This document shows, piece after piece, positions 17,114 through 59,853 of a DNA stretch of 64,000 bases (position 1 is the first letter of the stretch; every line of letters starts with the position of its first letter). Location: positions 558,001 through 622,000 of the forward strand of contig NZ_QRGB01000001.1 in assembly GCF_003449035.1 (NCBI RefSeq), in the 5' to 3' direction. The stretch comes from Pedobacter indicus. GTDB taxonomy: Bacteria > Bacteroidota > Bacteroidia > Sphingobacteriales > Sphingobacteriaceae. The translations under genes were made by a program, and so were the position numbers. The notes beneath the pieces are model-generated. The model was not told the DNA's origin. It did no database searches and saw only the letters and a program-made list of their open reading frames with translations.

Positions 17114-17179
17114 ATATACAAGGTTAATTCGTAGCCAAATATAGAAGGATCACCAGATCCCTGATAGAAACTTGTTGAA

Positions 17180-17296
17180 AACTTGTTAAGGGTATTTGCC
17201 AATTTATTACCTAATAAATCCCTATTGGACTCGTTTATTTCGACGAAAATAGGGATCCGTGAGGGTAGCAATAGACAATCAATCCTCCATGATGTA
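17180..17296 (+). repeat. Dispersed 117-nt repeat, copy A (probable coding remnant)
   Basis: Aligns without gaps to 59614-59730 on the opposite strand; by hand count about 85 of 117 bases agree. Shared blocks are TGTTAAGGGTA-like, CCTAAT, TCCCTATT, GAAAATAGGGA-like and ATCCTCCATGATGT. Read in frame both give LPNxSL...KIG...NRQxILHDV, including AGA versus CGG for the same arginine, so it may descend from a coding sequence. In this copy the frame has no obvious start. It fills the gap between the peroxidase gene and the gene at 17344; the remaining 17114-17179 and 17297-17343 show nothing else. Confidence 0.75.
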
Positions 17297-17343
17297 AGAC
17301 AAGGTATTAACAAGTCATTTTGTATTAACTCAAACCGGATAAA

Positions 17344-59488: not shown

Positions 59489-59613
59489 TCCTTGACTAAT
59501 CGCAAACAAGCATAAACCATCTAAAAGAAGGTTGGTTTTGCTGTATCCAGCAAAGCCAGATATATCGCAACATTATTCGTAAACATCGGTGACAGGACGG
59601 AAAGGACTCGTTC

Positions 59614-59730
59614 GACATCATGGAGGATTCCTTGCCGATTTATTTCCTGATCACTCCCTATTTTCATCAATTTGAAGGGGTGGAATAGGGAATCATTAGG
59701 CAATTAATAGTTAATTACCCTTAACATGTT
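59614..59730 (-). repeat. Dispersed 117-nt repeat, copy B (probable coding remnant)
   Basis: Reverse-complement counterpart of 17180-17296, about 85 of 117 bases the same by hand count, no gaps. In the matching frame it has an internal TAA where copy A is open, then LPNDSLFHPF, KIGSD, NRQGILHDV; the open frame continues to 59521. It lies in the 430-nt gap after the Lrp gene. The remaining gap holds two TTGACTAATC copies around the Lrp stop and the terminator at 59854. Confidence 0.75.
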
Positions 59731-59853
59731 TTTACCAAGGTAATTTATTTTTCGTTGCTTTTTGTTGCTTTCTTGACACGAGAAACAGCAGGACTTACGA
59801 GCTATCGAAATTGCTTAATTTAGGTCGACGATAGCACCATCGGAATACTCCAT

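Follow-up and report, generated by a model that had tools for sequence, protein, structure and literature searches.

Palindromic repeats with an 11-nt rhythm, dispersed between the genes of Pedobacter indicus, and related elements in its family

The window analyzed here is a single stretch of 64,000 nt from the genome of Pedobacter indicus, and it contains two copies of a repeat, referred to as A, each lying between a pair of convergent genes. Copy 1 occupies 17168..17310 on the plus strand, where the neighboring genes were assigned by Pfam to a CCP_MauG cytochrome c peroxidase (+) and an NA37 nucleoid-associated protein (-). Copy 2 occupies 59600..59742 on the minus strand and is flanked by genes assigned in the same way to an Lrp/AsnC regulator (+) and to a protein with two transketolase-type domains (-), the latter probably being pyruvate dehydrogenase E1 beta. 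An earlier note on this DNA had counted by hand about 85 identical positions out of 117 between 17180-17296 (+) and 59614-59730 (-), and the count of 85/117 without gaps was confirmed. A repeat search within the window lengthened the pair to 17171-17295 and 59615-59739 (125 nt, 74% identity), and a covariance model extended each copy to 143 nt, with matches of 136.6 bits (E 2.7e-21) for copy 1 and 144.8 bits (E 1e-22) for copy 2. The similarity of the pair is not due to chance, given an E value of 1.9e-15 by within-genome BLAST. No third copy of A was found in the 64,000-nt window by the covariance model. The inner inverted repeat TCCCTATT/AATAGGGA that had been reported for the pair is present in both copies. 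In copy 1, the left arm TCCCTATT, at the innermost 11-nt unit, is found at 17219..17226 (+) and pairs with the right arm AATAGGGA at 17248..17255 (+), and in copy 2 the corresponding left and right arms are found at 59684..59691 (-) and 59655..59662 (-), respectively. Within the inner left arm, TCCCT is invariant across an alignment of 18 copies.

In the host genome (3.47 Mb), BLAST searches followed by the covariance model gave 25 A sites, of which 23 have E ≤ 3e-8, one has 0.003, and the last is weak. Beyond the window pair there are thus 23 further sites, all but one of which (22) reach E ≤ 0.003, and these refute the alternative of one recent local duplication. The covariance model (R1) was built from 18 A copies and contains only 3 base pairs, making it essentially a sequence profile. 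Copies of A are dispersed through the genome in both orientations and are intergenic, with none of the 25 found inside a long gene. Those at G000:C1:259958 and 327150 (G000 being the host genome) adjoin blocks that share one set of short open frames, and these blocks look like ribosomal RNA operons.

As far as sampled, in one congener and about 150 genomes of the family, the A family appears by its sequence to be species-specific. The model search returned no match in the approximately 150 family genomes and, in the congener, G001, a single one that is doubtful (26 bits, E 0.4). The pattern CCCTATTNNNTCCCTATT was absent from all other genomes among 395 of the class, and a pattern scan of public genomes gave 46 matches in unrelated organisms, none of which was a good match to the model. 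Between orthologous gene pairs, the intergenic gap in the congener is smaller by the length of the element or more, as at site 142997 (about 10 bp in the congener and about 294 in the host) and at the locus of window copy 2 (145 and 431, respectively); these are length comparisons rather than precise empty sites, because the two species are too diverged for the gaps to be aligned base by base.

All A copies match the model on both strands (for copy 1, also at 17164-17317 on the opposite strand with 52.5 bits; for copy 2, at 59605-59735 with 41 bits), and the whole element is therefore an imperfect palindrome. Its arms are made up of 11-nt units, roughly TGATTCCCTAT, with a self-identity at lag 11 of 0.43 overall (z = 10.2) and of 0.51 in the left arm (z = 9.0); the right arm has a z of 5.0. 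In the divergent copies at 1303316 and 1416884, CCCTATT is changed to CCGCATT in successive units of both arms, and the copy at 1032300 has a perfect stem of 18 bp. A degenerate ACTTGKTTTAC can be seen at the ends on both sides but is weakly conserved, and the centre of A is better conserved than its ends in the 18-copy alignment. As the inverted arms carry one motif, the element combines a phased array of putative recognition sites with the capacity to form a hairpin.

A larger non-coding repeat of 0.5-0.7 kb, referred to as M, contains A and often also B, a GC-rich 11-nt phased palindrome with CCCCTGT units that is related to the reverse complement of A. B adjoins A in several copies, also within M, and is found alone at G000:C1:3463436-3463481 (L164). 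M, exemplified by G000:C1:726734-727444 and its relatives L129, L138, L125, L134, L143, and L142, has inverted ends of 14 bp (ACCCGTTGTGCATT/AATGCACAACGGGT), and the copy at 2746037 is flanked by an exact 8-bp duplication, ATTATTTA. The youngest A copies sit within M. For A itself, no target-site duplication stands out among 16 copies. The Y1_Tnp transposase is absent from the host genome, which excludes A as a REP mobilized by a RAYT, and no autonomous partner for A was identified by searches for Y1_Tnp and for the ends of M. A plasmid or phage origin was also considered, and no match was found apart from one to a viral contig.

Elements with the same layout and other motifs were sought with a motif-blind scanner, which scores palindromic pairing together with the self-identity of each arm at a set lag, whatever the motif. 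At loci picked for A, 20 scanned windows lay above the lower threshold at lag 11, compared with 0 or 1 at other lags. Matches of at least 65 at lag 11 numbered 6 + 7 in the host, and in 400 kb of host sequence not picked for A, the high threshold was passed 7 times at lag 11 and never at lags 7-10 or 12-15. The congener gave 5 at lag 11 in 400 kb and at most 1 at other lags, and 200 kb of another genome (G017) gave 2, a sample that is weak taken alone because several matches were also found at other lags. None was found in 200 kb of G008 or in 80 kb each of G014, G002, G007, and G005, all members of the family, nor outside the family in 224 kb of other families and 50 kb of Escherichia coli. 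By extrapolation from these samples, the total for the host genome may be of the order of a hundred elements.

The elements found in this way include families with other units, namely D (CCACTGTTTGA), E (around TGTCCGAACAA), and F (around CCCGTTGTGAA). D is common to the host (about 13 copies) and the congener (about 29); in a second, large genus of the family, 18 of the 94 species gave weaker matches to the D model. The second-genus examples that were read are clearly palindromic and phased at 11 nt, with CAGTGCTTGTT among their units, and one of them (L347) has 11-bp closing ends, TGACCAAATTC/GAATTTGGTCA. L345, L346, and L347, from three species of this genus, are apparently one element at one locus, which would then have persisted through speciation. 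Matches to the D model of 120, 142, and 109 nt differ from 131 nt by exactly 11 or 22, as expected if entire units come and go. A unit consensus near TTGACCCCTGT may be common to the families, but with many rotations tried it is no more than suggestive. A palindrome of the second-genus type, likewise phased at 11 nt, was also seen on a predicted viral contig (IMGVR_UViG_2639762920_000002; L348:8595-8615).

The best explanation, to which we give an even chance, is that A is one family in a set of non-coding palindromic elements of about 130-145 nt that are MITE-like, non-autonomous, and built with phased arms. A protein encoded elsewhere would recognize either the phased array or the hairpin extruded from it, and the elements would spread and then persist between genes at little harm, presumably with no function for the host; some A copies would travel within M. 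In favor of this explanation are the dispersal of intergenic copies in both orientations, the absence of A from relatives and the shorter gaps in the congener, the palindrome with its 11-nt rhythm, the several unit families of one layout, the motif changes that extend over both arms and successive units, and the carrier M with its inverted ends. Several observations count against this explanation. The ends of A are less conserved than its centre, which is unlike a typical transposon; conservation in D tracks the 11-nt unit, in keeping with a selected function; one second-genus element seems to lie at a shared locus in three species; and A has neither a visible target-site duplication nor a mobilizing enzyme that could be found. 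A broader proposal, made tentatively and judged rather unlikely, is that the elements, known from two or more genera of one family, are strictly 11-bp-spaced inverted arrays read by a dedicated, fast-evolving protein or by hairpin-binding machinery, and that on several occasions a new motif took over in all units and both arms together, leaving each lineage with its own array types.

The 11-bp phased motifs could alternatively be used by the host as multi-site platforms to which a sequence-specific DNA-binding protein attaches, for nucleoid organization, segregation, or gene-end insulation, and be kept by selection, an explanation we regard as unlikely but worth weighing. It would account for the conservation of D, which is periodic at about 11 nt (38 and 30 of 5000 permutations), and for the pairing at D spacer positions, where an arm taken from another copy does nearly as well (0.444) as the copy's own arm (0.458), so that the motif is kept rather than the pairing. 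It also fits the placement of A, as convergent gene pairs flank 11 of the 25 copies compared with 21 of 169 background gaps. However, conservation in A shows no 11-nt periodicity, the congener has some of the gene pairs that flank A but not A itself, and no candidate binder was identified.

It is less easily argued, and in our judgment improbable, that the elements are transcribed as long hairpins in 3' untranslated regions, where they would help to protect, process, or terminate mRNAs. A-form RNA makes one turn in 11 nt, and several elements fold far better than their shuffles. The clearest case, L220:18865 (G000:C1 about 2278865), is a separate palindrome with CTTGTT/AACAAG ends that forms a single full-length hairpin of -61.8 kcal/mol (z -8.9), and many other elements have z values of -4 to -7. 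Placement between convergent genes and the occurrence of motif changes in both arms are in keeping with such an RNA, although two-arm changes may also stem from quasipalindrome template switching. Opposite positions of A, taken on the plus strand, are C-A in 95 cases and G-U in 36, as if a minus-strand RNA tolerated G-U, but this excess is driven largely by one subfamily of related copies, and the same strand-specific count over all opposite columns of D gives 107 versus 86. An apparent one-strand G-U excess in D (70 versus 20) was rejected because RNAalifold had picked columns allowing G-U. Also against an RNA, hardly any pairs form in the consensus fold of the 18 A copies, and for both window copies the advantage over shuffled sequences is slight (z -1.4 to -2.2). 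Two further tests were set aside, namely permutations of A arms between own and other copies, in which the best register was chosen per copy, and a covariation count that took in both strands of each element. Rfam contained no family matching at the curated threshold; weak matches to microRNA families were far under threshold and merely reflect the hairpin shape. Both window copies resemble intrinsic or bidirectional terminators in being palindromes between convergent genes but differ from them in that no terminator-like site (a GC-rich hairpin with a T run) is found inside either copy.

Descent from a protein-coding gene is highly improbable, for although the frame proposed in the earlier note is open over 39 codons in copy 1 (copy 2 has one stop there), only 2 of the 25 copies are open (chance about 6% per copy), the 32 differences that had been read as including synonymous changes are split 11/10/11 over the codon positions, the 11-nt unit is no multiple of 3, and no intact, full-length parent was found, the only longer relative being M. 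What the earlier note had proposed is therefore upheld as regards a multicopy mobile or structured non-coding element, in view of the many intergenic, palindromic, species-specific copies, and abandoned as regards former coding capacity.

Among known systems, bacterial MITE-like palindromic repeats include RPE, ERIC/IRU, YPAL/RU-2, NEMIS/Correia, and RUP, and as reviewed they resemble A in being about 100-200 bp, non-coding, and intergenic, with a long imperfect palindrome and families restricted to species or genera (PMC2229807). The descriptions consulted make no mention of an 11-nt rhythm or of several families alike in layout but different in motif (PMC2229807). A is short, non-coding, multicopy, and dispersed, and it behaves like a bacterial MITE in its dispersal; strict membership of that class fails on the target-site duplication, and no partner is known. 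REP sequences are palindromes of 20-40 bp that carry GTAG or CGTC as a terminal tag and are associated with RAYT transposases (PMC3733652). Like REPs and REPINs, the elements described here are short extragenic palindromes in many copies, with families that have alternative stem letters (PMC3733652). Unlike REPs, A is about 143 nt in length, has no GTAG or CGTC tag at its aligned ends, and is found in a host without Y1_Tnp. The parC locus of plasmid R1 consists of two clusters of 11-bp direct repeats around a short centre, at one locus beside parMR, and arrays of this type are bound by a ParR-type protein encoded alongside. To our knowledge, no account of parC presents these clusters as a palindrome with inverted arms. 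A likewise has 11-bp arrays around a centre but is present in approximately 25 chromosomal copies, apparently without a partner gene.

No description of such elements was found in the literature searched, and the recurrence of one layout with different units in related species suggests an undescribed class of small DNA elements that are probably mobile. Small palindromic repeats are common in bacteria; a strict 11-nt rhythm maintained across differing sequences is an unusual constraint. The sharing of this rhythm implies a specific reader or generator, and the combination of period, inversion, and motif offers a handle for finding that reader and for distinguishing among mobile DNA, chromosome-organizing sites, and RNA hairpins.
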